Part shown: positions 2,220 to 50,022 of the stretch, one piece after another
Layout of the letters: each line of letters starts with the position of its first letter
Numbering within the stretch: position 1 is the first letter of the stretch
DNA from: Lacinutrix venerupis
GTDB taxonomy: Bacteria > Bacteroidota > Bacteroidia > Flavobacteriales > Flavobacteriaceae
Direction of reading: 5' to 3'
Length of the DNA: 64,000 nt
NCBI RefSeq assembly: GCF_003663945.1
Contig: NZ_RCCH01000009.1
Location: 1 to 64,000, forward strand
Notes under the pieces: generated by a model
What the model saw: only the letters and a program-made list of their open reading frames with translations
What the model was told of the DNA's origin: nothing
The model's database searches: none
Made by a program: the position numbers and the translations under genes

Positions 2220-2250
2220 AAATAAAACGATTGTATTTCATCGAATAAAT

Positions 2251-2280
2251 TTGCTTTTAAACTATTAATCGTTATTTTTG
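2251..2280 (+). promoter_or_regulatory. Consensus Bacteroidota promoter for the 1603-residue adhesin
   Basis: TTG at 2251-2253 is followed after exactly 19 bases by TATTTTTG at 2273-2280, a full match to the Bacteroidota sigma-ABfr consensus TTG-N19-TAnnTTTG. Transcription would start near 2286, leaving a leader of about 55 bases before the ATG at 2342. Confidence 0.75.
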
Positions 2281-2341
2281 TCCTTTAAACCTTATCGTTT
2301 ATCGATTTATCGCTAATCTTGAATGATAATACATCCCAAAT

Positions 2342-7153: not shown

Positions 7154-7174
7154 ATACTCCTTTAACACTATTTT

Positions 7175-7207
7175 TTGTTCAACATATTAGGTTCTTCACT
7201 ATCTTTG
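7175..7207 (+). promoter_or_regulatory. Promoter that decides the start of the 785-residue adhesin
   Basis: TATCTTTG at 7200-7207 matches TAnnTTTG, with a TTG at 7175-7177 (22-base spacer, slightly long). Transcription would start near 7213, downstream of the first possible ATG at 7209, so the ATG at 7224 must be the used start. Confidence 0.6.
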
Positions 7208-7223
7208 CATGCTGTTTGTTGTT

Positions 7224-9581
7224 ATGATAAAGAAAACCTTAATACTATTAACGCTGTTAATTACTATCTCTCTTAATGCTCAAAACATTATTGTAGATAG
7301 TCAAACTTATACACCTCAACAATTAATTGAAGATATATTAGCAGATAGCAACTGCATCTCTAATATTGTAGTTAATGGAACTGTTGGTGGAGATTTTGGA
7401 GGAACAGACCAAAGCTATGGTTATTTTGATGCTACAGGAACTAGTTTTCCATTTCAAAGTGGTATTGTTTTAAGTACAGGAAGATTAGCAAATGTTCCTG
7501 GGCCAAATAATAGTTTAAGCGATGATAATGCCTCAAATTGGAGTGGTGATATTGATTTAGAAATGGCATTACAAGAATCAAATACTACAAATGCTACTAT
7601 TATTGAATTCGATTTTACTACGGTAGCAAATCAAATTAGTTTTCGTTATATTTTTGCATCAGAAGAGTATCAAGAAGGCAATGCTAACACTTGTCAGTTT
7701 TCAGATTTATTTGGTTTTTTAATAAAGCCTGCAGGTGCTACTAACTCAGAATATGAAAACATTGCTTTAGTTCCAGAAACCACTACTCCAGTAAAAGTTA
7801 CGACAGTACACTCTGGAATTCCTGGTGCTTGCGATCCTATTAACGAAAGTTATTTTGACAGTTGGAATCCAGAATCTGCAACCTCAACATCGCCAATTAA
7901 CTTTAATGGTCAAACTACTATTTTAACTGCAACCGCCACTACAGTGCCTAATGCTAGTTATCATGTAAAACTAGTTATTGCAGATGAGCAAAATTATCGT
8001 TTTGACTCTGCAGTATTTTTAGAAGCTGGTAGTTTTCTATTAAACACAGATTTAGGTCCTGACAGATTATTAGCTACTAATAATCCTGTTTGTGGTAACG
8101 AAATTATCACATTAAATGCTACACAAAACGGCACACCTTCATACAAATGGTTTCAAGACGGAATAGAACAAACTACAGAAACCTCTAGCACATTTAATGT
8201 TTCGTCAACCGGAACATATAACGTAGAAGTAACTTTAGACAATGGTTGTATATCTTATGGAGAAATTGTTATAGAATATGCACCAATTCCAAACGTTAAC
8301 AATACTACTCTTTTTGAGTGTGATAGCAATCAAGATGGTTTAACAACATATAATTTATATAATGCCGAAGAAAGTATAATTAATAACAACCAAGCTTTAA
8401 CTGTATTAGATTTTTATACTTCCTTAGCAAGTGCAACAACAGAAAACAATCCTATTTTAAATCCAAATAGTTTTAATAACACAGCTGTTATGCAAACAGT
8501 TTATGCTGTAGTTATTAATCAAACAACTGGTTGCAAGGCTATAGCCGAAGTAACTTTAGATATCTCTACAAACACATTAATTTTAGACGATGTTACTGTT
8601 TGCGATGATGAAGTTGTGGATGGTTTTTCTACATTTAATTTAAATGATATTGTAACCTTTATAGAACCACAAGTTCCTGCTAATGCAAGCATCACTTTTT
8701 ATGAAACAAGTGCAGATGCTTTTTCTGAAACAAATAGCATTAACGGAGATTATAACAATACGGTTGCAAATTCTCAAACTATATTTGTTAAAGTAACTAC
8801 AGATACTAACCAATGTTATGCTATTTCAGAACTCTCGCTTAATGTTTTATTTACGCCAGAGTTATTAGAAGATGAAGCATTTTTATATTGCCAAAACACT
8901 TTTCCTGAAACTATTACACTTATCGCCGGAGTTACAAATGATGTTCCTAACAATCATTATTTCCAATGGCTATTTAATGGTGTAGATACAGGTAGTGTTA
9001 GTCCTACTTTTGAAGCTAATCAAATTGGAACTTACACCGTTATAGTTACAGATCCTAATGGCTGTTCTAACACTAGAGATATAATTTTAACTCCTTCTAA
9101 CGAACCTACAATAGAAAATATAGAGTTTACAGAATTAACATCAAACAATACTGCAACCGCTATAATTGAAGAAGCTGGAGATTACGAGTTTGCTATAGAC
9201 AACGAATTTGGCTTTTATCAAGATGCAAACACCTTTACTAACTTAGAACCTGGCTTTCATACCATTTATGTTCGCGATAAAAATGGTTGTGGAGATATAG
9301 TATCTAGAGAATTTTCAATTTTAGGCTTTCCTCAATATTTTACACCAAATGGAGATACTTTTAATGAAGTTTGGAAACCTTATGGTACATCTAAAGATTT
9401 CAACTCTAATTTAGAGATTTTAATTTTTAACCGATATGGTAAACTACTTAGCAAAACTAGCTCCTTTAAAGGTTGGGATGGTAAATTAGATGGTTTTAAT
9501 TTACCTAATGATGATTACTGGTACATTATTAATCATCCTAATGGCAAACAGTATAAAGGTCATTTTGCTTTAGTTAGGTAG
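7224..9581 (+). CDS. Choice-of-anchor L protein with T9SS type B sorting domain
   Basis: A paralogue of the preceding gene in short form, 785 residues from the ATG at 7224. An upstream in-frame ATG at 7209 is rejected because the -7 promoter box ends at 7207. A signal peptide (MIKKTLILLTLL..LNAQ) precedes a choice-of-anchor L domain (SFRYIFASEEYQEGNANTC, SAVFLEAGSF). Next come an Ig/PKD-like segment with KWFQDGIEQ, two CDxDG..FNLN repeats, another Ig-like segment (FQWLFNGVDTG), and a C-terminal sorting domain (YFTPNGDTFNEVWKPYG, FNRYGKLL, WDGKLDG, KGHFALVR). The domain order is the same as in the 1603-residue neighbour minus nine repeats, so the two probably arose by duplication followed by repeat gain or loss. 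Confidence 0.85.
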   Translation: MIKKTLILLTLLITISLNAQNIIVDSQTYTPQQLIEDILADSNCISNIVVNGTVGGDFGGTDQSYGYFDATGTSFPFQSGIVLSTGRLANVPGPNNSLSDDNASNWSGDIDLEMALQESNTTNATIIEFDFTTVANQISFRYIFASEEYQEGNANTCQFSDLFGFLIKPAGATNSEYENIALVPETTTPVKVTTVHSGIPGACDPINESYFDSWNPESATSTSPINFNGQTTILTATATTVPNASYHVKLVIADEQNYRFDSAVFLEAGSFLLNTDLGPDRLLATNNPVCGNEIITLNATQNGTPSYKWFQDGIEQTTETSSTFNVSSTGTYNVEVTLDNGCISYGEIVIEYAPIPNVNNTTLFECDSNQDGLTTYNLYNAEESIINNNQALTVLDFYTSLASATTENNPILNPNSFNNTAVMQTVYAVVINQTTGCKAIAEVTLDISTNTLILDDVTVCDDEVVDGFSTFNLNDIVTFIEPQVPANASITFYETSADAFSETNSINGDYNNTVANSQTIFVKVTTDTNQCYAISELSLNVLFTPELLEDEAFLYCQNTFPETITLIAGVTNDVPNNHYFQWLFNGVDTGSVSPTFEANQIGTYTVIVTDPNGCSNTRDIILTPSNEPTIENIEFTELTSNNTATAIIEEAGDYEFAIDNEFGFYQDANTFTNLEPGFHTIYVRDKNGCGDIVSREFSILGFPQYFTPNGDTFNEVWKPYGTSKDFNSNLEILIFNRYGKLLSKTSSFKGWDGKLDGFNLPNDDYWYIINHPNGKQYKGHFALVR

Positions 9582-9650: not shown

Positions 9651-12600
9651 ATGAAATCATTCTACATCTTATTTCTTTTTTGTTTTGTTAACGTAGCTCT
9701 ATATGCGCAAACCACACCAATTCCAGACACTAATTTTGAGCAAGAATTAATAAACCAAGGCATAGATACTAACGGCTTAAACGGTAACATTTTAAACACA
9801 GATGCAGAATCTATTACAAGTTTAACACTAGCAGGTACTAATATTACAGATATTACAGGCATAAATGCTTTTATAAATTTAACAGATTTAGATTTAGGTA
9901 ATAATCAAGTTATTACTGTTTCATTAACAGCTTTAACGCAATTAGTAAGTTTTAGAACGAATGATAATGAAGTGTTAGCTAGTGTCGATTTTAGTCAAAA
10001 TATTTTATTAGAAGATATATTTATACATGGTAATTTTCCATACACAACTTTACCACCAATTACAACAATAGATTTATCTCAAAATGTAAATTTAATTTCT
10101 TTTGACGGTGATTTTTTAAATAATGTTACAGATATTATTTGGCCAATAACCAACACACTAACCACAATTGACATAAGATATTTAGCAGATACTACATTAG
10201 ATTTTTCTCTTTTAAGTGGTTTAGAAGATTTAAATATTGGCGGCTCTAGCGTAAACAATGTTGTTATTACGCTTCCTAATGTATTTACAAATCTTAAAGA
10301 TTTAAGAATAAGCAGCATAGATATTCCTACTATAGATATTTCAAATTATATTAATCTAGAAAGCATCTATTTTTGGGGAACTTATGTAGAGAACCTTTTG
10401 CTTCCAAATTCTAATACACTAACAGATATTTTTATTATTATTCACGATATTCAAAATCCGTTAGATTTTTCAGTTTTGCCTAATCTAACAGACTTAGATA
10501 TTACCTCTAACCAAACAACACCTTTAGTTGTAGACGTTACTCAAAATCTACTTTTAGAAGATATAGATTTATCTAATAACGATTTAAATACTATAGATTT
10601 AACACAAAATATAAATTTAGAAGAGTTAAGTATAGGCGCTAATAATTTAACAGCTTTAGATGTAACACAAAATACTCTACTGTATCGATTAAGTGCAGCC
10701 TATAACCAATTACCAACTATAGATTTATCTCAAAACACCATTTTAGAGTATTTAACATTAAGCTTTAATTCACTTCCAACTTTAGATGTAACACAAAATG
10801 TTATTCTTCGTCAATTAATAATAGACAATAATTTATTTACCACAACAGGATTAGATTTAACACAAAATGTAGAATTAAACTATATAAACATATCACATAA
10901 TCAAGTTGAGTCTTTATATATTTTAGACTGTATAAAACTTATAAGTTTAAATATTAGCCACAATTTATTTTCTGGTACAGATATTTTAGATCAATTATAC
11001 ACTGTAAAATCAAATTATTTTGGTGTTTCTGCCTCCAATTTAATAGATGTTAGCTACAATAATCTTCACGGTCTAATGCCCGATTTTGCAAGTTTAGTTG
11101 GTACAAATGCAAACTACTTTAGATTTTATTTTCACAATAACGCATTCGAATTTGGACATTTTGAAGATCAACATAACCAATTTGTAAATTTTTTGTCACA
11201 AACAAACACTTTTGGATCATCACAATTACCAATTATGACCGAATACGGTTATGCACCACAAGCTAAAGTAGATGTTATACAAACTATTAATGCTAATGCA
11301 GGAGATGCTGTAACATTAACAACGGTATGTGCTGGAACTCAAAACCATTATACTTGGTTTAAAGATGGCGTTGCCATACCAGGAGCTCCAGACTCACCAA
11401 GCTACACTATTCCTTCTGTCAACAGCTGCGACCAAGCAGTTTACCACTCCGAAATTACAAGTGACTTAGTACCTTTCGAAAACGGAAATCCTCCTGGAAC
11501 AGGAAATAAAAATTTATTATTAATAAGAAACGATATCACGCTAAATGTTAACTCTCCTACAGAAAGTTGTACATCTTTAATTTCACCAGCAAACGGAAGC
11601 ACAAATGTACCATTAAATGAAGTTTTAACTTGGGCAGAAAGCTTAGGTGCTTGTGGTTATTTTATAAGTATGGGTACTACTTCTGGAGCAACAGATATTT
11701 TAAATAATGTAGATGTAGGTAATGTAACTAGTTATACAACAAATTCTAATTTGCCTCCAAACACTCAAATATTTATAACAATAACGCCATATTTTCTCAA
11801 TGGCACAGTATTAAATTGTAATGAAGAAAGTTTTACAACAGGAAACACAACCGTAATTCCAGAATGCACAACACTTTCGCATCCTGTTAATGGTGATACA
11901 AATCAGCCTGTTTCTATAGATTTACATTGGAACAGCATTGCTAATGCTACTGGTTATATACTTAATGTTGGAACAACTTCTGGAGCAACAGATGTTTTAA
12001 ATAACATAGATGTAGGCCTTGTAACAACTTATGATTTTGCAAATGATTTATCAGAAAATGAAACAATATACGTAACAATTACACCATATAACTCTGCCGG
12101 AAATGCCATTAGCTGTTTAGAAGAAAGCTTTACCACATTACAAACTTGTAACGTTACTGCAGAGGCTTTGCCAGACACAACACAATGTGATAATTACACG
12201 CTGCCTACATTAACTTCGGGCAACTATTTTACAGCGTCTGGCGGAACAGGAACGCCGTTAAACGCAGGAGATACAATCAATACAACACAAACCATTTACA
12301 TATATGAAACTAATGGCAGTTGTAGTGACGAATCTAGTTTTAATATCACCATAAACATAACACCAACTGTAGAAGTTTTAAACAACCAAACTGCTTGCGA
12401 TAGTTTTACACTACAACCTTTAGCTGTTGGTAATTATTTTACTGCATCTGGCGGAACAGGAACGCCGTTAAATGCTGGAGATACAATTACATCTACGCAG
12501 ACCATTTACATATATGAAACTAATGGCAGTTGTAGTGATGAGTCTAGTTTTGATGTTACAATTATAACAACACCAACTGTAGATGTATTAAATAACCAAA

Positions 12601-14525
12601 CTGCTTGTGATAGTTTCACATTACAACCTTTAACCGTTGGAAACTATTTTACAAATACTGGAGGAACAGGAACGCCGTTAAATGCTGGAGATACAATCAA
12701 CACAACACAAACCATTTATATTTACGAAACCAATGGCAATTGTAGTGACGAGTCGAGTTTTGATGTTACAATTACAACAACTCCAACTGTAGACGTTTTA
12801 AATAACCAAACTGCTTGCGATAGTATTACACTACAACCTTTAACCGTTGGAAACTATTTTACAAATACTGGAGGAACAGGAACGCCGTTAAATGCTGGAG
12901 ATACAATTACATCTACGCAGACCATTTATATTTACGAAACCAATGGTAATTGTGATGATGAATCGAGTTTTGATGTTACAATTACATCAACTCCAACTGT
13001 AGATGTATTAAATAACCAAACTGCTTGCGATAGTTTCACACTACAACCTTTAACCGTTGGAAACTATTTTACCAATGCTGGAGGAACAGGAACGCCATTA
13101 AACGCAGGAGATACAATCACAACAACACAAACCATTTATATTTACGAAACCAATGGCAATTGTGATGATGAATCGAGTTTTGATGTTACAATTACAACAA
13201 CTCCAACTGTAGACATTTTAAATAATGAAACTGCTTGCGATAGTTTTACACTTCAACCTTTAACAGTTGGAAACTATTTTACTGCATTTGGCGGAACAGG
13301 AACGCCGTTAAACGCAGGAGATACAATCACAACAACGCAAACCATTTATATATATGAAACTAATGGCAGTTGTAGTGATGAGTCAAATTTTAATGTTACA
13401 ATTACAACAACACCAACTGTAGATGTGTTAAATAACCAAACTGCTTGCGATAGTTTTACACTGCAACCTTTAACCGTTGGTAATTATTTTACAGCGTCAG
13501 GCGGAACAGGAACACTGTTAAACGCAGGAGATACAATCACAACAACACAAACCATTTATATATATGAAACTAATGGTAGTTGTAGTGATGAGTCTAGTTT
13601 TAATATTACCATAAACACAACTCCAACTGTAGATGTTTTAAATAATATAATTGTTTGCGATAGTTATATTTTACAAAATTTGAATAATGGCAATTACTTT
13701 ACACAGCCTAATGGTAATGGTACACAATTAAATGCAGGAGACATTATATCAACTTCCCAATCGCTTTACATATACAACGAAATTAATAATTGCTCTGCAG
13801 AAACCTTTTTCAACATTACTATACACGAAACTCCAACAGTAGATATTTTACAAGATGTAGTTTCTTGCGATTCGTTTATTTTACAACCTTTAAATAATGG
13901 AAATTATTATTCAGCACCTAACGGTATGGGAACTCCTATGCTACCTGGTGAAAATATTCTAGCATCTCAAACTATTTATATTTACGCCGAAACAAGCACA
14001 AATCCAAATTGTTTTAACGAAAGTGTTTTTACTGTAACCATTAATCCATCTCAAAATTTCAATCTAACACAATCAAATTTAAATATATATGAAGGTGAGT
14101 TAACAGTAACAATGAACGATACTTCTATAGATTATCAATATTCTATAGATGGTTTTAACTATCAAAATAATAATTTATTTTCTGGATTATCAGATGGCAG
14201 TTATACACTTTACGTAAAAGACACAAATGGTTGTTTAGAAAAAACTATTGATTTCACTATAGAACTTAAACAATTTATTATCCCAAAATTCTTCACTCCA
14301 AATGGCGATAACGTTAATGAAACTTGGGATATTATCGATAATAAAAATGAAATTAAATTAACATCCATTTTTAATCGTTATGGCAGACTATTAACACAAC
14401 TCAAAACAACAAATAGATGGGATGGCACATATAGTGGAGAGTTATTACCAACATCAGATTATTGGTACATTATAGAATTAAAAAATGGCACTATTTTAAA
14501 AGGACATTTTAGTTTGGTGAGATAA
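9651..14525 (+). CDS. LRR and tandem-repeat adhesin with T9SS type B sorting domain
   Basis: A 1624-residue surface protein with a signal peptide ending LYAQ. Residues about 40-480 are irregular leucine-rich repeats of the bacterial type (TSLTLAGTNITDITGI; DLSNNDLNTIDLTQNINL). An Ig-like piece (HYTWFKDGVAIPGAPDSPSY) follows. Two fibronectin III-like modules (about 640-830) each contain GTTSGATD..NNxDVG. Nine 70-residue repeats (about 834-1463) each contain TACDSFTLQPL, GGTGTPLNAGDT and QTIYIYETNG. The last 85 residues are the sorting domain (FFTPNGDNVNETWDI, FNRYGRLL, RWDGTYSG, KGHFSLVR). LRRs usually mediate protein binding; this points to adhesion, with no ligand predictable. A TATTTTTG box sits at 9622-9629, without a clear TTG at the right distance. 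Confidence 0.85.
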   Translation: MKSFYILFLFCFVNVALYAQTTPIPDTNFEQELINQGIDTNGLNGNILNTDAESITSLTLAGTNITDITGINAFINLTDLDLGNNQVITVSLTALTQLVSFRTNDNEVLASVDFSQNILLEDIFIHGNFPYTTLPPITTIDLSQNVNLISFDGDFLNNVTDIIWPITNTLTTIDIRYLADTTLDFSLLSGLEDLNIGGSSVNNVVITLPNVFTNLKDLRISSIDIPTIDISNYINLESIYFWGTYVENLLLPNSNTLTDIFIIIHDIQNPLDFSVLPNLTDLDITSNQTTPLVVDVTQNLLLEDIDLSNNDLNTIDLTQNINLEELSIGANNLTALDVTQNTLLYRLSAAYNQLPTIDLSQNTILEYLTLSFNSLPTLDVTQNVILRQLIIDNNLFTTTGLDLTQNVELNYINISHNQVESLYILDCIKLISLNISHNLFSGTDILDQLYTVKSNYFGVSASNLIDVSYNNLHGLMPDFASLVGTNANYFRFYFHNNAFEFGHFEDQHNQFVNFLSQTNTFGSSQLPIMTEYGYAPQAKVDVIQTINANAGDAVTLTTVCAGTQNHYTWFKDGVAIPGAPDSPSYTIPSVNSCDQAVYHSEITSDLVPFENGNPPGTGNKNLLLIRNDITLNVNSPTESCTSLISPANGSTNVPLNEVLTWAESLGACGYFISMGTTSGATDILNNVDVGNVTSYTTNSNLPPNTQIFITITPYFLNGTVLNCNEESFTTGNTTVIPECTTLSHPVNGDTNQPVSIDLHWNSIANATGYILNVGTTSGATDVLNNIDVGLVTTYDFANDLSENETIYVTITPYNSAGNAISCLEESFTTLQTCNVTAEALPDTTQCDNYTLPTLTSGNYFTASGGTGTPLNAGDTINTTQTIYIYETNGSCSDESSFNITINITPTVEVLNNQTACDSFTLQPLAVGNYFTASGGTGTPLNAGDTITSTQTIYIYETNGSCSDESSFDVTIITTPTVDVLNNQTACDSFTLQPLTVGNYFTNTGGTGTPLNAGDTINTTQTIYIYETNGNCSDESSFDVTITTTPTVDVLNNQTACDSITLQPLTVGNYFTNTGGTGTPLNAGDTITSTQTIYIYETNGNCDDESSFDVTITSTPTVDVLNNQTACDSFTLQPLTVGNYFTNAGGTGTPLNAGDTITTTQTIYIYETNGNCDDESSFDVTITTTPTVDILNNETACDSFTLQPLTVGNYFTAFGGTGTPLNAGDTITTTQTIYIYETNGSCSDESNFNVTITTTPTVDVLNNQTACDSFTLQPLTVGNYFTASGGTGTLLNAGDTITTTQTIYIYETNGSCSDESSFNITINTTPTVDVLNNIIVCDSYILQNLNNGNYFTQPNGNGTQLNAGDIISTSQSLYIYNEINNCSAETFFNITIHETPTVDILQDVVSCDSFILQPLNNGNYYSAPNGMGTPMLPGENILASQTIYIYAETSTNPNCFNESVFTVTINPSQNFNLTQSNLNIYEGELTVTMNDTSIDYQYSIDGFNYQNNNLFSGLSDGSYTLYVKDTNGCLEKTIDFTIELKQFIIPKFFTPNGDNVNETWDIIDNKNEIKLTSIFNRYGRLLTQLKTTNRWDGTYSGELLPTSDYWYIIELKNGTILKGHFSLVR
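12151..14040 (+). repeat. Nine tandem 210-bp repeats inside the LRR adhesin
   Basis: The phrase encoding TPTVDVLNNQTACDS recurs at 12361, 12571, 12781, 12991, 13201, 13411, 13621 and 13831, each exactly 210 bases apart, and the first unit begins at 12151. Units 2-7 are close to identical at DNA level, with long shared stretches such as GGAACAGGAACGCC. The first and last two units are diverged. All are in frame, giving 70-residue modules. Confidence 0.95.
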
Positions 14526-27425: not shown

Positions 27426-27896
27426 TTAAAGTTTTGTTGTATCTAACAAGCGACTATCGATATCTAAATCTGAAATTTTAATAATCTTTAATTTATCAAT
27501 ATCCTTATGTTTTGGGTTTACCAAAATATTATTAGCTATCGGTAATATAGCACAAGGAACTTTTAATGCTAATTTTTTATTTTCTTTTAAAAAAGTTGTT
27601 CCAAAATTAACTGTACTACTTTTAGGAGGATTATCTCTCCAATCTTTATCTAAGTCTTTTAACTTTAAACTTTTATTAACCATCGTGTCTGGAATTTCTA
27701 CTTCCATATAACCAAAATCGTTTGATAAATATTTAAAATCAAGATGTACTAAAACCTCTAAAAGGCTTGTAGATAGACTATCTGAAAAATAGAGCATAGC
27801 CATACCTTTTTTATTCCAACGACCACCGTAAAGCCTTGAGCCTTCTCCAGATAAATCTTCTAAATATTGTTTTTTAGCTATTCTAAAACCACGCAT
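27426..27896 (-). CDS. RES family toxin (NAD+-degrading)
   Basis: A 156-residue RES domain. The family's name-giving residues appear as the Arg in RLYGGRWNKKG, the Glu in SLLEVLVHL and the Ser in PPKSSTVNFGTTFL. The C-terminal VPCAILPIANNILVNPKHKD is also typical. Members of this group degrade NAD+ and act as type II toxins held by a cognate Xre-type antitoxin. The gene begins 2 bases after the antitoxin stop, the standard antitoxin-first order. In the family the ILP motif usually reads VPS..P.E.N; here it is VPCAILPIAN. Confidence 0.88.
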   Translation of the reverse strand: MRGFRIAKKQYLEDLSGEGSRLYGGRWNKKGMAMLYFSDSLSTSLLEVLVHLDFKYLSNDFGYMEVEIPDTMVNKSLKLKDLDKDWRDNPPKSSTVNFGTTFLKENKKLALKVPCAILPIANNILVNPKHKDIDKLKIIKISDLDIDSRLLDTTKL

Positions 27897-27898
27897 AA

Positions 27899-28402
27899 TT
27901 AAGAATAAACACCAAACTCTATACGACCTAAAACATCTAAAATTAATGCAGTACCAAAACTAGTATCCAGCAAACTAATAGGCTTATTATAATTTAAAAC
28001 GCGAATATCGCTATGTAACCAAGAGGTAAAATTATCTAGCGTTCCTAACACTTCTATACCACGAGAAACGACTTGGGCTATTTCTAAAATTTGTTCTGTA
28101 CTATATACGTTTAATAAATCGTTATCGTTTTTACGTTGTATAGTACGATGCGAAACATGTATTAAATCGCTCATGTACTCCATAGAGATACCTAAAAGTT
28201 TACTAAGCGTTAAAACCGCAGACTTTGGTAAGCCCTTTCTAGTAATTTGAATAAGATCGAAATCACTGTTTATATCTTGAGAGATATTTGCGCTACCGCC
28301 TAAAACACTAATAATTCTATGATATTTATTGTCTAAGCCATAAAAGGTTTCTGGCTCATTTGCTAAGTTTTGGATACTTGTTTCTTGTTTATACGGCTTC
28401 AT
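27899..28402 (-). CDS. Xre/MbcA/ParS-type antitoxin
   Basis: A 167-residue antitoxin from the ATG at 28402 (MKPYKQETSIQNLANEPE). The frame is open to an ATG at 28432, but the -7 promoter box at 28420-28427 lies downstream of that codon, so it is not used. The middle part (ESxx-type helix-turn-helix around KSAVLTLSKLLGISMEYMSD and HVSHRTIQRK) fits the Xre-like DNA-binding domain. The C-terminal SWLHSDIRVLNY through GTALILDVLGRIEFGVY is the MbcA/ParS toxin-binding domain. It probably autorepresses its own operon. Confidence 0.88.
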   Translation of the reverse strand: MKPYKQETSIQNLANEPETFYGLDNKYHRIISVLGGSANISQDINSDFDLIQITRKGLPKSAVLTLSKLLGISMEYMSDLIHVSHRTIQRKNDNDLLNVYSTEQILEIAQVVSRGIEVLGTLDNFTSWLHSDIRVLNYNKPISLLDTSFGTALILDVLGRIEFGVYS

Positions 28403-28406
28403 AATA

Positions 28407-28440
28407 ACGACATTTGACACAAATATAAACATTTTTGTCG
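28407..28440 (-). promoter_or_regulatory. Promoter and candidate operator of the RES-Xre module
   Basis: On the - strand TATATTTG (reverse of 28420-28427) is a consensus -7 box. It is flanked by the inverted half-sites CGACA (28407-28411) and TGTCG (28436-28440), each continued by a similar ATTTG/AAATG sequence, a layout suited to autorepression by the antitoxin. Confidence 0.5.
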
Positions 28441-28467: not shown

Positions 28468-29013
28468 TTAATTACAAATTTTGCAGTCTTCTTTCTCTTG
28501 TATTTCTCCTACCAATACGCCATTATCATTTTCTACAAAACCGCAACAATCTTTAAAGCCTTGGGCAACCATTTTTCTAGCACGCTGAATTTGAGATTTT
28601 ACAGCAGGTAAAGTAAGGTTTAACTGCTTTGCTATATCCAATTGCTTTACACCTTTTATATCTGAAAGAAATAGAGGCTCGCTGTATTTTTTGGGTAAAC
28701 TTTTTAAAATACCATACAAACATTCCTTTTCTGTATGAGTAGTTTCTTTTATTTGTGTTTCTGTTTCGAAATTTGCTATTTCAAATGTTTTGTTACTTGT
28801 TTTAAAATAGTCTAAAACCGAATATCTAGCAATGGAGAACAACCAAGATTTTAATTTAGAAACATCTTGTAAAGTACTTAATTTAGTATGAACTTTTATA
28901 AATACATCCTGCAATATATCATCTGCAACAGCATCATTTTTAACTTTACTAAAAATAAAACGTTTTAAATCACCAGAATATATTTGCCAAACTTCTTTTG
29001 TTGTCATAACCAT
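28468..29013 (-). CDS. sigZ: RNA polymerase sigma factor, SigZ type
   Basis: A 181-residue ECF-family sigma factor. Region 2 is seen as DLKRFIFSKVKNDAVADDILQDVFIKVH with the ILQDVF core helix, and WLFSIARYSVLDYFK. Region 4 (LPKKYSEPLFLSDIKGVKQLDIAKQLNLTLPAVKSQIQRAR) carries the -35 recognition helix. The tail GFKDCCGFVENDNG and EDCKICN is cysteine-rich, as in SigZ, and might sense metal or redox. No anti-sigma gene lies next to it. A gene for a 33-residue cysteine-rich peptide lies 50 bases upstream on the same strand. Either of two near ATGs (29013 or 29007) may be the start. Confidence 0.82.
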   Translation of the reverse strand: MVMTTKEVWQIYSGDLKRFIFSKVKNDAVADDILQDVFIKVHTKLSTLQDVSKLKSWLFSIARYSVLDYFKTSNKTFEIANFETETQIKETTHTEKECLYGILKSLPKKYSEPLFLSDIKGVKQLDIAKQLNLTLPAVKSQIQRARKMVAQGFKDCCGFVENDNGVLVGEIQEKEDCKICN

Positions 29014-29019
29014 AATATT

Positions 29020-29059
29020 AAGTCGGTTTTACATAAAGTAAATTACATAAAACCAACTT
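29020..29059 (-). other. Hairpin between the cysteine-rich peptide gene and sigZ
   Basis: The arms AAGTCGGTTTTA (29020-29031) and TAAAACCAACTT (29048-29059) pair over 11 of 12 positions. The hairpin falls just before the sigZ start codons. It could be an attenuator that leaves the small upstream gene more highly expressed, but it lacks a strong T-run on the - strand. Confidence 0.4.
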
Positions 29060-29063
29060 TTAA

Positions 29064-29165
29064 TTAACAATTGCAATTAGTACAAGTACAATTCTCGCAT
29101 GTACAAGATTTGCAGTTTCCATCTTTACAACCTTCGCAATTACAGTTACATTCTATATTTTCCAT
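29064..29165 (-). CDS. 33-residue cysteine-rich, metallothionein-like peptide
   Basis: A short frame read on the - strand from the ATG at 29165 to the TAA at 29064-29066. The peptide starts MENIECNCNCEGC and ends CENCTCTNCNC. Eleven of 33 residues are Cys, arranged in repeated CxC and CxxC pairs, the pattern of a metal-thiolate peptide. It has no signal peptide. It is upstream of sigZ and in the same orientation, so they may form one operon. That the sigma factor itself ends in a Cys-rich tail supports a metal or redox theme (inference). No other frame here is open, and chance would rarely give this composition. Confidence 0.7.
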   Translation of the reverse strand: MENIECNCNCEGCKDGNCKSCTCENCTCTNCNC

Positions 29166-29241
29166 AATTATTATAATTTAGTGTTCATATAATAGACTAA
29201 AAAATATTAAAAAAGATGCAAAAAAATATAACAAATTTTAG

Positions 29242-43244: not shown

Positions 43245-44747
43245 TTAGTTCTCATCTTCTTCTGCTGGTTTATTTTCAATTTGACTATCCGTATTTTCTA
43301 ATCTTTTTTCTATATTTTCTCTTCTAATTTTTTTAAGCTCTTTATTTCTTTCACGCTTTTCGGCTCTTTCTATATCCTTTTTAGTATTGTAATTACCTAT
43401 GTATAAATTAACGCCAAGACCTACACGTATGTACATATCGTCTCGTTTTCCTCTAATTAAACCGTCTAAATTATCGTTAAGTACAAAGTTATTTTCTACA
43501 AATGCTGTTACTCCTAATCTATCTGTTGCTAAATACTCTAAGCCTAAACCTGCTTGAAGTTTAGGATTAATATTATTAAAATCGCTTGAAATATTTGTTC
43601 CTCCACCCACATAGATATATGGTGACAATTTATCGAAAGGCAAAATATTATATTCGGCATTAGCATCTACAGAAACAAAACTTTTATCAAATATATCTTC
43701 GTTGGAAAGATTGAAAATATTAGCGTTAAGATTTAAGTTGAAATTTGAATTTAGGTAGCGCTTATAACCTAGTCTTGCATTTAAATTAAATTCTGGATTA
43801 ATATAATCGCCATTTATTCTTGTTAATCCTAAAGAACCATGGACAACATTATCTGTCCTTCTTTTAAAAGAAAATCTATTAAAAAGCTCTGTAGAGTTTG
43901 CTTCTTCAACTTCGGCGTTAAAATCTGCAACAAGTTTTTTATCTACATCTATACCTGCTTTTGTAGACCAATAACCATCTTTAATACCTTCTAATATTAA
44001 ATCATGTACTGCCTTTTCTATAGCATCTTTTACAGCTAACTGTACTGGCTCGTTTTGTGTAAAACCTGTTTCTGCCTCTAATAGTCTTTGAAATTTTACA
44101 AATCGAAATAAACTAACATCTACGGCTTGAGATAAAATAGTTTTAGAAACATAAATAGTTTTTAAAATCTCTCCATTTTTAGTTGAAATTGCCCTAAGGT
44201 AAACTGTAATTCTATCTTGGCGGTATTGTGCAGAGCCACCAAGACCAAAATATCTTGCTCCAGCACCACCAGTTACAATATTAGTATCGTAAGATATAAT
44301 ACCTCCTTCTAGCATTAAACCTGCATAAAGCAATGGCTCTATTGGAGGTTCATTAGGGTTAAGACCTTTTATATATTCTTGTTTAGTAGAACGAATAATA
44401 TTTCGCTCTGTAGATAAATTATTAAAATTTTCTCTTTCTAGCGGTATAAAGTAGCCTGAATCTCCTAACGCTTTTATTAAAATTGTAGTTGCACCTTGTG
44501 TTATTGCAGTACTAAAAGTACTTCCGTTTTCTACTGCTTTGTATTGACCTGTTTGATCACTAAAATTATATACCGCAACTTCTAAAGGATTTTTTGGAGG
44601 CGGAAGATCTAAAAGTTTTTTTGTTGATTTAGAAAACTCTCCAATTCTTGCAGATTCTTGAGAAAACGGTTGATTAAAATAAGTTGCACAAGAACTTGCA
44701 AATAAGCATATAGCCATTACGGCTATTATTTTTTTTAAATTATTCAT
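43245..44747 (-). CDS. csgG: Curli secretion channel CsgG with C-terminal beta-barrel extension
   Basis: A 500-residue protein. A lipobox signal (AVMAICLFASSC) is followed by the CsgG domain to about residue 270: VAVYNFSDQTGQYKAVENG, FSTAITQGATTILIKALGDSGYFIPLERENFNNL, GGIISYDTNI, then VTVYLRAIS and VDVSLFRFVKFQRLL. CsgG forms the nonameric outer-membrane pore for curlin export. E. coli CsgG is about 277 residues; here some 220 more follow. They consist of strands such as NLNARLGYKRYLNSNFNLNLNA, YIYVGGGTNISSDF and GVTAFVENNFVL, like an OmpA-type or porin-like barrel, then a charged tail. It is cotranscribed with csgF and csgE. Confidence 0.92.
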   Translation of the reverse strand: MNNLKKIIAVMAICLFASSCATYFNQPFSQESARIGEFSKSTKKLLDLPPPKNPLEVAVYNFSDQTGQYKAVENGSTFSTAITQGATTILIKALGDSGYFIPLERENFNNLSTERNIIRSTKQEYIKGLNPNEPPIEPLLYAGLMLEGGIISYDTNIVTGGAGARYFGLGGSAQYRQDRITVYLRAISTKNGEILKTIYVSKTILSQAVDVSLFRFVKFQRLLEAETGFTQNEPVQLAVKDAIEKAVHDLILEGIKDGYWSTKAGIDVDKKLVADFNAEVEEANSTELFNRFSFKRRTDNVVHGSLGLTRINGDYINPEFNLNARLGYKRYLNSNFNLNLNANIFNLSNEDIFDKSFVSVDANAEYNILPFDKLSPYIYVGGGTNISSDFNNINPKLQAGLGLEYLATDRLGVTAFVENNFVLNDNLDGLIRGKRDDMYIRVGLGVNLYIGNYNTKKDIERAEKRERNKELKKIRRENIEKRLENTDSQIENKPAEEDEN

Positions 44748-44762
44748 AAGAGGTAAAGCTTT

Positions 44763-45173
44763 CTAAGGATTTGGAACTATAACTTGGGTCTGCTCTCCAT
44801 TTAAAGTATCTAATATATTAATTACTAAACCTTCGTCAGACTCAAACACTTCTACATTTAATGAGCCAAATGTAAATGTTCCTTCTTCGTTAAAATCACC
44901 AACAGCATCTACTTGTTGTGCTAAAAGCGCTCTTGATATTTGACTAAGTACTTGTTGGTTTAATTGTTCTCCAAAACGATCTAATTCAGATTCTTCTTCA
45001 GTTTCTGTTCTAGCTTGTGTGAATCCATTTTGTGCATTTGCAGAACTTATTAGCCAGTTATAATTAAATGTATCTCCTCCAAATGCAGGATTTAAAGGCT
45101 TGTAACTAAATTGCTGTGCCACTGCAAGTGTACAAGTGCAAAAAAACAAGAATATAAATAGTTTAAATTTCAT
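44763..45173 (-). CDS. csgF: Curli assembly protein CsgF
   Basis: A 136-residue secreted protein, normal family length. The signal peptide ends AVAQ. The mature N-terminus has the CsgF signature YKPLNPAFGGDTFNYNWLISSANAQN (only a part quoted: NPAFGG and NYNWL). In E. coli this segment plugs into CsgG and the C-terminal half exposes a curli nucleation platform. The C-terminal region (GSLNVEVFESDEGLVINIL) is a beta sheet. It is two bases from csgE and 15 from csgG. Confidence 0.92.
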   Translation of the reverse strand: MKFKLFIFLFFCTCTLAVAQQFSYKPLNPAFGGDTFNYNWLISSANAQNGFTQARTETEEESELDRFGEQLNQQVLSQISRALLAQQVDAVGDFNEEGTFTFGSLNVEVFESDEGLVINILDTLNGEQTQVIVPNP

Positions 45174-45175
45174 AA

Positions 45176-45988
45176 TTAATAGCGTGTTATTGTTTCTTCT
45201 GATTTTTGTAAGAGCTGTAAATATCTAATACTTTTTTGCATTGCAATATTAACCATCTCAAGTAAAAACTTTTTTTTGGGGTTTACAAAAAATTGCCAAA
45301 CTAATTGACCATCTACTTTTACCGAGATTCTTGTTGACCTTCTTTGTCCAGGAACCTCCTCTATTACAATATGCTTATCTGTTTTTATTTGTCTGTTAAA
45401 ATACTCTGAATAAAAATAACGATGAAAATCTCTACCTGCTTTTGTTAGAGTTTTTTGAATAACTAAACCTTGTAAAAAAACACCGTCTTGACCTCCAACC
45501 GCTACATCTCTAGATTCTGGCTGTGTTAACTCTTTCCTATTAGGATCTAATTCTATTTTAATTTGTCCCTCTTCATCACTTGTTAACACTACTCTATCTT
45601 TACCTATTGCTCCTACATTTTCTTCTCCATCAATTATTGGATAAATAAATAATACAAGAATTATTTTACCATCAATATCATTATTAATAGTTAAGGAAGA
45701 TAACACTTTTTTTTGATTACCTTCTAAATAGAAACTATTGCTTTGTGAGGATCTAGAGCTATTATTATTTGCATCGGTTTTAAAAGCTAAAAACTCGTAT
45801 CTTAAATTATATCCTGAAAACTTTAAATTCTCTGCTGTTGCAGAGAATTTTGTAAACTCACTTGACTTTTCAATTTTTATTAAAGCATTAATATCTTTAT
45901 TATAAAATTTTTGTGCATTAACAGTTAAACTGCTAAGCACAAAAATTAATAATATTGTATAATATAGCTTTAGCTTAGAAAAATACAT
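45176..45988 (-). CDS. csgE: Curli assembly protein CsgE with N-terminal extension
   Basis: A 270-residue protein with signal peptide ending VNAQ. The CsgE domain is at the C-terminus (about 165-265: GLVIQKTLTKAGRDFHRYFYSEY, HIVIEEVPGQRRSTRISVKV, QLVWQFFVNPKKKFLLEM). In enterobacteria CsgE (about 129 residues) caps the periplasmic mouth of CsgG and gates curlin. Here about 140 extra residues precede it; they look like a beta-sandwich (KFSGYNLRYEFLAFKTD, DGKIILVLFIYPIIDG). The start lies 10 bases after the CsgB-like stop and the end 2 bases before csgF, so translation is probably coupled. Confidence 0.9.
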   Translation of the reverse strand: MYFSKLKLYYTILLIFVLSSLTVNAQKFYNKDINALIKIEKSSEFTKFSATAENLKFSGYNLRYEFLAFKTDANNNSSRSSQSNSFYLEGNQKKVLSSLTINNDIDGKIILVLFIYPIIDGEENVGAIGKDRVVLTSDEEGQIKIELDPNRKELTQPESRDVAVGGQDGVFLQGLVIQKTLTKAGRDFHRYFYSEYFNRQIKTDKHIVIEEVPGQRRSTRISVKVDGQLVWQFFVNPKKKFLLEMVNIAMQKSIRYLQLLQKSEETITRY

Positions 45989-45998
45989 TTAGAATACA

Positions 45999-46541
45999 CT
46001 AATTAAAACTTCTAATAATTACTGTAGGAGATGCAGATGTTTGAGTAAATTTAATATTTTTTGAAATGTTATTTGCTCCAAAACGTTCAAAATTTAAGTC
46101 ATCTCCGTTTTGTTTTAGTTCTAATGAAACTTTTGCACTAGGATCTATTACATAATCTAATATTGTATTGTTATCTCCATTTTGTTCTAAATCTGCAACA
46201 ACAGCATCTACTTGATAAGTAAGATTTACATTATTAGCATCTCCGTTTTGAGATATATTAATATCACTAGCTCTTGATGCTACTTTTACTACAGCTGTAT
46301 TAAAAGAAGAAACTTGTGTTATTGCAACAGAGTTTCCAGTTATTGTATTTAAAGTTTCATTTGGCGTTGTATCAAAATAAGAATCAAAAAAAGATTGTGA
46401 AACTTCTTGGCCATTTAGCTCTGTCGATGCTTCTGTATCATTATCTTCATCTGCACTATATGTTTGAGACCAACCTAATTGCAAAACAAATAATAACAAT
46501 ATAAATACTGAAATCGATTTATTTTTATTTAATATTTTCAT
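45999..46541 (-). CDS. CsgB-like minor curlin subunit (nucleator candidate)
   Basis: A 180-residue secreted protein with signal peptide ending LGWSQ. Three curlin-like units are visible: INISQNGDANNVNL, VADLEQNGDNNTILDYV and LELKQNGDDLNFERFGANN, the Q-x-G-x-x-N pattern of amyloid curlin repeats. It lacks the long repeat arrays of the two upstream subunits. In E. coli the minor subunit CsgB nucleates CsgA fibres; this gene has the right place, between csgA-type genes and csgE. No cysteines or C-terminal tail resemble the major subunits. Confidence 0.75.
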   Translation of the reverse strand: MKILNKNKSISVFILLLFVLQLGWSQTYSADEDNDTEASTELNGQEVSQSFFDSYFDTTPNETLNTITGNSVAITQVSSFNTAVVKVASRASDINISQNGDANNVNLTYQVDAVVADLEQNGDNNTILDYVIDPSAKVSLELKQNGDDLNFERFGANNISKNIKFTQTSASPTVIIRSFN

Positions 46542-46560
46542 AATAGTTGTAATTTAATGA

Positions 46561-46602
46561 AAAAAAAGGAGAATGCTTGCTATTTAGACACCCTCCTTTT
46601 TT
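46561..46602 (-). terminator. Terminator after the second curlin subunit gene
   Basis: On the - strand GGAGGGTG and CATTCTCC arms flank TCTAAATAGCAAG, preceded by A-run and followed by T-run. It matches the terminator at 48442-48482 in loop and outline. Confidence 0.85.
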
Positions 46603-46649
46603 AATTTATAGTATAAATTAACTATTTCTAATTAATATAAGCTTGAATC

Positions 46650-48158
46650 TTAACATCCACCTGCACCACATGGAGCATCTAAATCGAAACTACCTGGTCC
46701 ACCTGGAGTAATTAAAGTTTCCATTTCTTGGAAGTCACAGTTTTCACCGTCATTCATTAAATCTCCATTAGGTCCTAACTGTAATACACTAATTGTGTTA
46801 CCTCCGTTAGACATTCCATCTGGAATATTCTGGCTAGACTTAAAGCTATGACCTGTACCATCTGCAACACCTGCTTTTTGTACAATTAACGTTTGGTTAG
46901 CAAGACCTCTTTGACCTGTAAACGCAACGTTTCCATCACCGCTTTGGTAAGTACTTACTAAGTTAGAATCTCCTTTTTGAGACGAAACAACAATGTTACT
47001 ATCACCATATTGTCTTTGGTAAGCTTTGTGATCTCTACCGTTTTGACCTAAAATAGCACCGTTACTATCTCCTGTTTGATCTTGACGACCGTAGTTAGCA
47101 CCACCTGTTGTAGAACCATGAGCATTTTGTGCTATGTAAGCAGCATTACTATCTCCTGTCTGGTTTTGTTCTGCGTAGTCACTATCTTCACTACTGTCTC
47201 CCCACTGCCCTATGTAACCAGTATTAGCATCACCATCTTGAACTTGTAATGCTCTACCATTAGTAGAACCCATACCTGTATTATCTGTACCATTAGTATA
47301 ACCAGGATCTGATAATGAAATTGCAGCATCTAAAGTTGCTTGAGAAGCTCCAAAACCATTAATAGGATTAACATCTGCTCCTTGATCTACTAAAGCAATG
47401 TTATCGTCACCAGTTTGGTATTGATTAGAAATATTTAAATCTCCTTCTTGAACAGAGTGTGCTTTGTTACGACTACCATCTTGATCAATTCTGGTAACAT
47501 TCTCATCACCATATTGCTCAGCTATAGCAGTATTACCATCAGAACCATTTGGTCCAGAGTTTTGAAAAACACCTGCAACGTTATCATCTCCTTCTTGTAC
47601 TGTTCTTGCTTGGTTGTTGTCGAACTGCTGTCTTGTTCTAGCACGGTTGTCTTGACCATCTTGCTCTATCATAGCATAGTTCATTTCACCTTGCTGACCA
47701 GTTCCATGGTGAATTAAAGCTCTGTTTCCTCCACTTGCTCCACCGTCTTTCATACCTTGACGTGTAACAGCTTCGTTTAAATCTCCTTCTTGTAATGTAG
47801 TAGACTGGTTACCAGAACCCATTTGTCTTACATCTGCTGCATTACCTACACCACTTGCTGCTGAAACCTCACCTGTTTGCCAGATTCTAGCTCTGTTGTC
47901 TCCAGTCCCTAACCCATCTGCTTGTACTGAATAAGAAGATTGATTTGTTCCAGCTTGCATAACTTGTAACTTGTTAGAATTACCTGTTTGGATAGCCTCA
48001 CCCATGTTTCCGTTCCCACCTGCGTGATCAACAGCTATTTGAGTGTCTACTGAGTTTGATCCACTCTGATCTTTTAAGTCATCCTGAGATACAGGACCTT
48101 GCGCCATCATTGCGCCTGTGAATAATAGTGCCGAAGCACCTAAAATTACTTTTTTCAT
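46650..48158 (-). CDS. csgA: Curlin major subunit, copy 2 (CsgA-like)
   Basis: A 502-residue secreted amyloid subunit, about three times E. coli CsgA. The signal peptide is MKKVILGASALLFTGAMMAQ. About twenty curlin-like half-units with Q-x-G-x-x-N or N-x-A-x-x-x-Q-x-G follow, such as AIQTGNSNKLQVMQAGTNQ, ARTVQEGDDNVAGVFQ and NLVSTYQSGDGNVAFTGQ. The C-terminus is non-repetitive with cysteines (ENCDFQEME, DAPCGAGGC). The monomer is exported through CsgG and polymerises at the surface. It is almost a duplicate of the 48520 gene, the main difference being a segment around residues 265-290. Its own promoter and terminator bracket it. Confidence 0.92.
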   Translation of the reverse strand: MKKVILGASALLFTGAMMAQGPVSQDDLKDQSGSNSVDTQIAVDHAGGNGNMGEAIQTGNSNKLQVMQAGTNQSSYSVQADGLGTGDNRARIWQTGEVSAASGVGNAADVRQMGSGNQSTTLQEGDLNEAVTRQGMKDGGASGGNRALIHHGTGQQGEMNYAMIEQDGQDNRARTRQQFDNNQARTVQEGDDNVAGVFQNSGPNGSDGNTAIAEQYGDENVTRIDQDGSRNKAHSVQEGDLNISNQYQTGDDNIALVDQGADVNPINGFGASQATLDAAISLSDPGYTNGTDNTGMGSTNGRALQVQDGDANTGYIGQWGDSSEDSDYAEQNQTGDSNAAYIAQNAHGSTTGGANYGRQDQTGDSNGAILGQNGRDHKAYQRQYGDSNIVVSSQKGDSNLVSTYQSGDGNVAFTGQRGLANQTLIVQKAGVADGTGHSFKSSQNIPDGMSNGGNTISVLQLGPNGDLMNDGENCDFQEMETLITPGGPGSFDLDAPCGAGGC

Positions 48159-48186
48159 GTTAAATATATATTGATTAATAGCTTTG

Positions 48187-48194
48187 TAAAGATA
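48187..48194 (-). promoter_or_regulatory. -7-like box of curlin copy 2
   Basis: On the - strand TATCTTTA, a one-base variant of TAnnTTTG, is followed by a leader GCTATTAATCAATATATA shared with the copy at 50051-50058. Conservation between the two spacers begins at this box, which supports it as a real promoter element. Confidence 0.5.
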
Positions 48195-48441
48195 AAAAAA
48201 ATAAACACTAAAAACGTCTTTTTAAGACTATTTTCGACTATTGTTTTGGTAAAATCGATGAAATACATTAGCATAAAAAAAAACACCTATAAACAGCTAT
48301 AAATAAGAAACATAGCTTAAACCATCTACTTCTGTTTTTAAATATTAAAACTAAAATATTACTACATAAAACGTTTATTATTTTTTTTATGAAAAAATGC
48401 TTTGATAAGTTCTTTTTTATAAAACCATAAAAAGCTTAAAC
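48195..48441. other. Spacer between curlin genes, no gene seen
   Basis: With its flanks this belongs to a 361-base gap between the two curlin genes. The region is AT-rich, holds no ORF over 25 codons, and carries only the terminator of copy 1 and the promoter of copy 2 at its edges. A short GACTATTTTCGACTATTG direct repeat (GACTATT twice) lies at 48228-48243. Confidence 0.5.
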
Positions 48442-48482
48442 AAAAAAAAGAGGATGCTTGCTATTTAGACATCCTCCTTTTT
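48442..48482 (-). terminator. Terminator after the first curlin subunit gene
   Basis: On the - strand GAGGATG and CATCCTC arms around TCTAAATAGCAAG, with T-run after. Compared with the terminator at 46561 the stem differs at two positions that remain paired (G-C here, G-T there). Confidence 0.9.
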
Positions 48483-48519
48483 CTAATATGTAAAAACCTA
48501 AATTAATCTAGATTGGATT

Positions 48520-50022
48520 TTAACATCCACCTGCACCACATGGAGCATCTAAATTAAAGTCTGCTGGTGTTCCTGGTGTAACTAAAGTTTCCATATCTTG
48601 GAAATCACAGTTTTCACCTTCAGTCATTAAGTCTCCGTTAGGTCCTAATTGTAATACACTAATTGTGTTTCCTCCGTTAGCCATACCGTCTGCTAAGTTT
48701 TGGCTAGCTTGGAAGCTGTGTCCTGAACCATCTGCAACCCCACTTTTTTGTACAATTAAAGTTTGGTTAGCAAGACCTCTTTGTCCAGAAATAGCATAGT
48801 TTCCATCTCCACTTTGGTAAGTACTTACTAAGTTAGAATCTCCTCTTTGAGAAGTAATAGCAATGTTAACATCTCCATATTGTCTTTGGTAAGTTTTATG
48901 ATCCCTACCATTTTGACCAGAAACCGCTAAGTTACTAACTCCTGTTTGATCTTGACGAGCATAATTAGCTCCTCCAGTTGTAGAACCATGAGCATTCTGA
49001 TTTATGTAAGCTGAGTTTGTATTACCTGTTTGGTTTTGCTCTGCGTAGTCACTATCTTCACTACTGTCTCCCCATTGACCTATATAAGCTCCGTTACCAT
49101 CACCATTTTGCACCTGTAACGCTCTACCATCTGTAGAACCTAAACCTGTGTTATCAGTACCGTCAAGGTAAGTTGCATCTGCTTGCAAAACAGTAACATC
49201 AAAATTCGCTTGAGTATAACCAAAAATAATTGAATTAACATCTGCTCCTTGATCTACTAAAGCTACGTTATCATTACCATTTTGCGTTTGGTTAGAAACA
49301 TTTAAATTTCCTTCTTGAACAGAATGTGCTTCATTACGACTACCATCTTGATCTATCATAGTAACGTTTGAATCACCATATTGCTCAGCTATAGCAGTAT
49401 TACCATCAGAACCGTTTGGTCCAGAGTTTTGATAAAGACCCGCAATGTTATTATCTCCTTCTTGGATTGTTCTTGCTTGGTTGTTGTCGTACTGTTGAAC
49501 AGTTGTAGCTGAGTTGGTTTGACCATCTTGCTCTATCATAGCGTAGTTCATTTCACCTTGCTGTCCAGTTCCATGGTGAATTAAAGCTTTGTTACCTCCA
49601 CTTGCTCCTCCGTCTTTCATACCTTGACGTGTAACAGCTTCGTTAAAATCTCCTTCTTGGTAAGAAGTAGACTGGTTACCAGAACCCATTTGTCTTACAT
49701 CCGCTGCATTACCCTCGCCACTTGCTGCTGATACCTCACCAGTTTGCCAGATTCTTGCTCTGTTATCTCCAGTTCCTAATCCATCTGCTTGTACTGAATA
49801 AGAAGATTGATTTGTTCCAGCTTGCATAACTTGTAACTTATTAGTGTTACCAGTTTGAATAGCCTCACCCATGTTTCCGTTCCCACCTGCGTGATCAACA
49901 GCTACTTGAGCATCTACTGAAGTTGTTCCATTTTGACCTGTTAAAGATCCTTGAGTTGGTAATTGTGCAAATAATGCACCAGAGAATAATAGTGCCGAAG
50001 CACCTAAAATTACTTTTTTCAT
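48520..50022 (-). CDS. csgA: Curlin major subunit, copy 1 (CsgA-like)
   Basis: A 500-residue secreted amyloid subunit, first gene of the curli locus. Signal peptide: MKKVILGASALLFSGALFAQ. A conserved N-terminal segment (VDAQVAVDHAGGNGNMGEAI) precedes about twenty Q-x-G-x-x-N curlin units, for example NKLQVMQAGTNQSSYSVQ, ARTIQEGDNNIAGLYQ and NLVSTYQSGDGNYAISGQ. The tail ENCDFQDME and DAPCGAGGC is identical in layout to copy 2. At DNA level long stretches at both ends match copy 2, while the centre (about residues 265-290, DVTVLQADATYLDG) is diverged. This suggests recent duplication with ongoing gene conversion. Confidence 0.92.
   Translation of the reverse strand: MKKVILGASALLFSGALFAQLPTQGSLTGQNGTTSVDAQVAVDHAGGNGNMGEAIQTGNTNKLQVMQAGTNQSSYSVQADGLGTGDNRARIWQTGEVSAASGEGNAADVRQMGSGNQSTSYQEGDFNEAVTRQGMKDGGASGGNKALIHHGTGQQGEMNYAMIEQDGQTNSATTVQQYDNNQARTIQEGDNNIAGLYQNSGPNGSDGNTAIAEQYGDSNVTMIDQDGSRNEAHSVQEGNLNVSNQTQNGNDNVALVDQGADVNSIIFGYTQANFDVTVLQADATYLDGTDNTGLGSTDGRALQVQNGDGNGAYIGQWGDSSEDSDYAEQNQTGNTNSAYINQNAHGSTTGGANYARQDQTGVSNLAVSGQNGRDHKTYQRQYGDVNIAITSQRGDSNLVSTYQSGDGNYAISGQRGLANQTLIVQKSGVADGSGHSFQASQNLADGMANGGNTISVLQLGPNGDLMTEGENCDFQDMETLVTPGTPADFNLDAPCGAGGC

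Follow-up and report, generated by a model that had tools for sequence, protein, structure and literature searches.

Among ECF sigma factors that act without an anti-sigma factor, CorE of Myxococcus xanthus (ECF44, now ECF238) is controlled by cysteines of its C-terminal extension (PMC8999054, PMC3107203), being activated by Cu(II), while CorE2 is activated by Cd and Zn (PMC8999054, PMC3107203, PMC9023288). OrbS of Burkholderia cenocepacia also has no anti-sigma factor, and its four C-terminal cysteines sense Fe(II), which is inhibitory (PMC9023288). In all three proteins, CorE, CorE2 and OrbS, a cysteine-rich tail is known to sense metal (PMC8999054, PMC9023288). The bacterial metallothioneins SmtA/BmtA/PmtA and MymT are small proteins in which abundant Cys residues form CxC and CxxC motifs (described in general terms in PMC12193353). 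SmtB-, RicR- or BxmR-type regulators control such metallothioneins.

The window analyzed here (the whole 64,000-nucleotide stretch of Lacinutrix venerupis DNA) contains a small gene for a cysteine-rich peptide in front of a SigZ-like ECF sigma gene (Table 1). By analogy, this unit would work like a metallothionein combined with a CorE-type sensor, with membership in neither family being asserted. Like CorE and CorE2, the sigma factor has a Cys-rich C-terminal extension, with four invariant tail cysteines, and no linked anti-sigma gene; it shares an adjacent CC pair with CorE2, yet its spacing is CC-x19-C-x2-C instead of CC-x3-C-x2-C-x-C (PMC9023288). Unlike CorE-like proteins (ECF44/ECF238), it has no CxC in the sigma2-sigma4 linker, only Cys98 with His93 being found in the aligned homologues. 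The reported targets of CorE are oxidases and ATPases, whereas the window sigma factor is linked to a metallothionein-like peptide; OrbS differs both in its regulon (siderophore synthesis and use) and in its Cys spacing. The peptide, in turn, resembles the named metallothioneins in size, Cys content and motifs, but it has 33 residues, lacks His, has no match in Pfam, NCBIfam or the PDB, and would be under the control of an ECF sigma factor. Literature searches among open-licence papers found no description of a peptide-SigZ unit. If the reading of these sigma factors as a sensor family is true, the unit would provide, as far as we know, the first case of a metallothionein controlled by a sigma factor dedicated to it.

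Table 1. Features of the peptide-sigma locus, in coordinates of the window.
Feature	Position	Strand	Basis
Candidate SigZ-type ECF promoter	29193..29220	minus	Conserved motif, fixed spacing
Peptide gene, 33 aa, metallothionein-like	29064..29165 (stop included)	minus	11 invariant Cys, Ka/Ks
Hairpin, 17-bp stem, 6-nt loop	29020..29059	minus	z -5.3; between peptide stop and sigma start
SigZ-like ECF sigma gene	ORF 28468..29013	minus	Sigma70_r2 + Sigma70_r4_2; NF007215 E 4.8e-48
Sigma C-terminal tail coding region	28468..28566	minus	Cys156-Cys157 + Cys177-x2-Cys180 invariant

A conserved gene for a cysteine-rich peptide

The sequence-only reading had proposed a 33-residue peptide with 11 cysteines, co-oriented with the sigma gene and separated from it by a hairpin, and all of these elements were recovered (Table 1). 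The product of the small ORF is MENIECNCNCEGCKDGNCKSCTCENCTCTNCNC. No other ORF of at least 25 aa in the window reached 30% Cys; none did so in 60 Markov-simulated windows, and the highest Cys fraction in 40 further simulated windows was 0.20. Across 46 distinct 33-codon orthologues all 11 cysteines were invariant, with variation between their TGT and TGC codons; the Cys spacing was fixed, Gly16 invariant and Thr22 nearly so, and the median Ka/Ks was 0.20, none of the usable pairs exceeding 1. Cysteine conservation also held among 28 diverse homologues of the peptide. Judged by these comparisons, the 33-codon ORF is a real gene, since its 11 cysteines are invariant and its Ka/Ks is low.

Searches of the peptide against Pfam and NCBIfam, known bacterial metallothionein models included, returned no family at E values up to 1, and neither PDB chains searched with the peptide profile nor plasmids gave a match. 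The peptide has the sequence characters of a metallothionein: it is small and devoid of aromatic residues, and Cys, in CxC/CxxC arrangement with conserved spacing, makes up about one third of it. Such CxC/CxxC spacing without aromatics is typical of metal-thiolate proteins, and the peptide is probably metal-binding.

Pairing of the peptide with the sigma factor

The sequence-only reading had named the absence of such an ORF beside sigZ elsewhere as grounds for refutation, but the ORF proved to be regularly present there. Separate searches for the peptide and for the sigma factor were carried out in 397 Flavobacteriaceae genomes, with the cut for sigma orthologues placed in the score gap between 185 and 163 bits. 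The peptide gene lay directly upstream and on the same strand in all 52 genomes above that cut, a count obtained with a sigma profile derived from peptide-linked loci and hence biased toward pairing. A search of 60 relatives with the window sigma sequence alone, which is free of that bias, agreed: nine genomes besides this one had an orthologous sigma factor (at least 44% identity), and every one of them carried the peptide in that place. The intergenic gap ranged from 6 to 252 bp in the 52 genomes (median 78.5), and is 50 bp in the window. Genera with the peptide include Lacinutrix, Winogradskyella, Polaribacter, Tenacibaculum, Kordia and Flavicella, and it was also present in Saprospiraceae MAGs; in a phylum-wide search of 395 genomes, matches to the peptide were confined to Flavobacteriaceae, though Saprospiraceae MAGs carry it. 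As far as genome comparison goes, many marine Bacteroidota have kept the pair. In one of the nine relatives with an orthologous sigma factor (G002; locus L010, G002:C1:1932343-1933018), stop codons interrupt the sigZ reading frame and the peptide is reduced to 28 codons, as if the two were decaying together.

The peptide without the sigma factor was found in about 18 Flavobacteriaceae genomes. In Kaistella and Frigoriflavimonas the sigma-less peptide is close to a mutase gene, the one by which the peptide-sigma pair is flanked in other genomes, and one Frigoriflavimonas locus (L112, 4001-4111 and 6094-6204, plus strand) holds two copies of the Cys peptide with no sigma gene nearby. In two sigma-less loci the peptide gene comes after a gene for CDF cation efflux, identified by Pfam scan in one and by eye in the other; in one region of this kind, from a sigma-less genome (L178:1719-3686, minus strand), the peptide gene is behind the CDF cation transporter and a PqqB-like metallo-hydrolase, and L183 is similar.

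Among the conserved neighbours in 8-kb loci, judged by sequence clusters, no anti-sigma factor-like gene was found, so that the locus is not a canonical ECF/anti-sigma pair. The neighbours of the sigma gene in the window clade are not metal-resistance genes. Directly downstream of sigZ, a RES/Xre type II toxin-antitoxin pair (27426-28432, minus strand; NF049844, NF049845) is present both in the window and in several congeneric genomes; it was rejected as a part of the unit, being absent beside most homologous pairs.

Candidate promoter and intergenic hairpin

The upstream regions of the peptide genes, which otherwise do not align, have in common the motif TGCATCTTTTT-N12-CGTCTA. In the window, its parts are TGCATC (29215-29220) and GTCTA (29193-29197) separated by 17 nt, with transcription expected to start about 7 nt past GTCTA, near 29186. 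The distance from the motif to the peptide ATG was mostly 53-61 bp (most commonly 54 bp), and the strict pattern was passed by 50 of the 69 peptide loci, with the near variants TGCGTC and CGCATC in others; at the sigma-less peptide loci examined the motif was not found. The peptide operon holds the single match with N12 spacing in this genome, and the exact motif, at about one copy per pair-bearing genome of the genus, is essentially confined to the operon. When two mismatches were allowed, counts were about equal to those of a reversed-pattern control, and therefore no wider regulon can be claimed. An additional exact match with N14 spacing (G000:C3:66617) was discarded, as no convincing gene start is located there. 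The layout of the -35 and -10 elements is ECF-typical, and the sigma factor itself would recognize this promoter; the simplest reading would be autoregulation, with a regulon of about one operon.

A hairpin at z < -3 was present in 54 of 58 homologous intergenic regions, with sequences unrelated between lineages, and a run of at least four T at its 3' edge was found in 35 of 59 loci; the hairpin of the window has no T-tract. An Rfam search of the region gave no match. The hairpin is probably a partial terminator or a 3' mRNA stabilizer, holding peptide output above that of the sigma factor.

The sigma factor and its cysteines

The likely true start of the sigma gene is at 29007, giving 179 aa, since homologues begin at MTT or MKT. 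Both Sigma70_r2 and Sigma70_r4_2 scored above cut-off, only sigma2 and sigma4 domains are present, and in fold comparison an AlphaFold2 model (mean pLDDT 81) matched structures of ECF sigma factors, in agreement with an ECF assignment. The best curated family was SigZ (NF007215), aligned over nearly the full length; the scores were below both curated cut-offs (163.5 vs 212 bits for NF007215; 147.8 vs 168.65 bits for TIGR02959), and the protein is thus a SigZ relative and not an equivalog by NCBI's rule.

Five cysteines (C98, C156, C157, C177 and C180) were invariant in 35 sigma homologues, and H93 nearly so. The sequence-only reading had placed five cysteines in the tail; four are located there (CC and CKIC), while the fifth conserved one, C98, is at the beginning of sigma-4, with His93 nearby. 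This set of invariant residues suggests that C98/H93 and the tail cysteines form a candidate metal or thiol site that connects the tail with sigma-4.

Sister SigZ clades

Lower-scoring SigZ relatives fell into two groups, which joined the window clade apart from other ECF sigma factors (support 99/92). In clade B a different peptide, with 14 invariant Cys, was directly upstream of the sigma gene in 22 of 23 loci; its promoter is TGTATCTTTTT...GTCTAC...GAAC, with a -35 of the form TGTATC, and most loci have a hairpin of their own. In clade C an arsenite methyltransferase gene (arsM) was near the sigma gene in 6 of the 14 loci examined (calls were based on NF008823 above cut-off in two scanned loci, and on tblastn in the rest), in one further locus the sigma gene adjoined genes for an ArsP permease and an ArsE-type thioredoxin, and seven loci had no arsenic gene nearby. 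TGCGTC...CGTC was found upstream of the sigma gene in several clade C loci. A third type of small Cys-rich ORF (MNKIENCCVSQLEQEKMNCNCECTRNDKGQCVCDCNDDCCDSSYC; L245:4519-4656, plus strand) was located just 3' of one clade C sigma gene with a promoter of the TGCGTC type.

We give about an even chance to a general reading, in which the SigZ-type sigma factors of Bacteroidota would be anti-sigma-free sensors of thiophilic metals or metalloids, with a -35 element shifted per clade (TGCATC, TGTATC, TGCGTC), a metallothionein-like peptide of its own being the main and perhaps only target in each of two clades, and arsenic methylation and efflux being served by the third.

Proposed mechanism and alternative explanations

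We consider it fairly probable, from the genomic patterns described, that the locus is an autoregulated two-gene operon in which an anti-sigma-free sigma factor with an on-board Cys sensor drives a metallothionein-like buffer peptide under metal(loid) or thiol stress. Through C98 and the CC...CxxC tail, the sigma factor would sense a thiophilic metal or metalloid in excess, or a related thiol stress; it would then recognize the motif ahead of the peptide gene, and transcription would yield much peptide and a little more sigma factor, the hairpin letting only some transcripts reach sigZ or protecting the peptide mRNA. By sequestering the ion in thiolate clusters, the peptide would return the sigma factor to its resting state and close the loop. 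The thiophilic metal or metalloid most likely activates the sigma factor, as in CorE, rather than inhibiting it, as in OrbS. The sequences themselves establish the reality of the gene, its pairing, the promoter motif, the hairpin and the invariant cysteines; we infer the use of this promoter by the sigma factor, metal binding, the kind of ion and this direction of regulation. The earlier idea of a thiol- or metal-sensing unit without an anti-sigma factor is thus partly upheld, by the pairing, the shared putative autoregulatory promoter, the sister clades beside arsenic genes, and the lack of an anti-sigma-like neighbour in the 8-kb loci.

The strict one-to-one pairing and the Cys-rich tail in every sigma sequence aligned would also be expected if the peptide regulated the sigma factor, either as a small anti-sigma factor or as a metal donor or acceptor acting on its Cys tail. 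We hold this to be unlikely: the genomes that keep the peptide with no sigma gene or promoter nearby, Kaistella and Frigoriflavimonas among them, argue that it has a use of its own, and the peptide looks like a simple thiolate ligand, with no recognizable interaction surface. The signal could instead be oxidant, electrophile or thiol-disulfide stress, with the same architecture and the peptide acting as a thiol buffer, given that the sigma cysteines could form disulfides and that OsmC-like or DJ-1/PfpI genes adjoin some loci. Only a minority of loci, however, have neighbours of this kind, which seem to reflect local synteny, while the metal-thiolate type of Cys spacing and the arsenic genes of the third clade point toward metal(loid)s, making such a signal quite improbable.

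A short ORF rich in Cys codons and with a hairpin after it, T-runs being present in more than half of the loci, further recalls a Cys-responsive leader peptide, in which ribosome stalling at Cys codons would control termination at the hairpin and hence sigZ expression; mycobacterial polycysteine short ORFs are a precedent (Canestrari 2020, as cited in PMC13236596). Pairing of a hairpin arm with the ORF, however, was no better than in synonymous shuffles (mean z 0.0, 49 loci), which argues against a Cys attenuator. Peptides of the window clade contain no tandem Cys run, the fixed Cys spacing, invariant Gly16, nearly invariant Thr22 and low Ka/Ks likewise speak against it, and the peptide also occurs without a downstream sigma gene, so that we regard attenuation as very improbable.

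Many genomes have annotated SigZ-type sigma factors with no known signal assigned to them. Under the preferred reading of a sigma factor driving its own buffer peptide, these gain a target gene linked to them, the sequence of a promoter and a candidate site for sensing, and the pairing with a Cys peptide suggests a purpose for the poorly understood SigZ. Two very short metallothionein-like peptide families are added, hidden until now by length cut-offs (the window gene was previously unannotated). This suggests that metal buffering might be placed under a sigma factor dedicated to it instead of a repressor.

Other features of the window

A large secreted-looking protein, encoded at 9651-14525 (plus strand), contains a series of nearly identical repeats, each about 66 residues long (TACDSFTLQPLTVGNYFT...), and other large secreted-looking proteins adjoin it at 375-9581. 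By eye only, a curli-type amyloid-like locus was recognized at 43245-50022 (minus strand), with CsgG/E/F-like neighbours and two long curlin-repeat-like paralogues (46650-48158 and 48520-50022).
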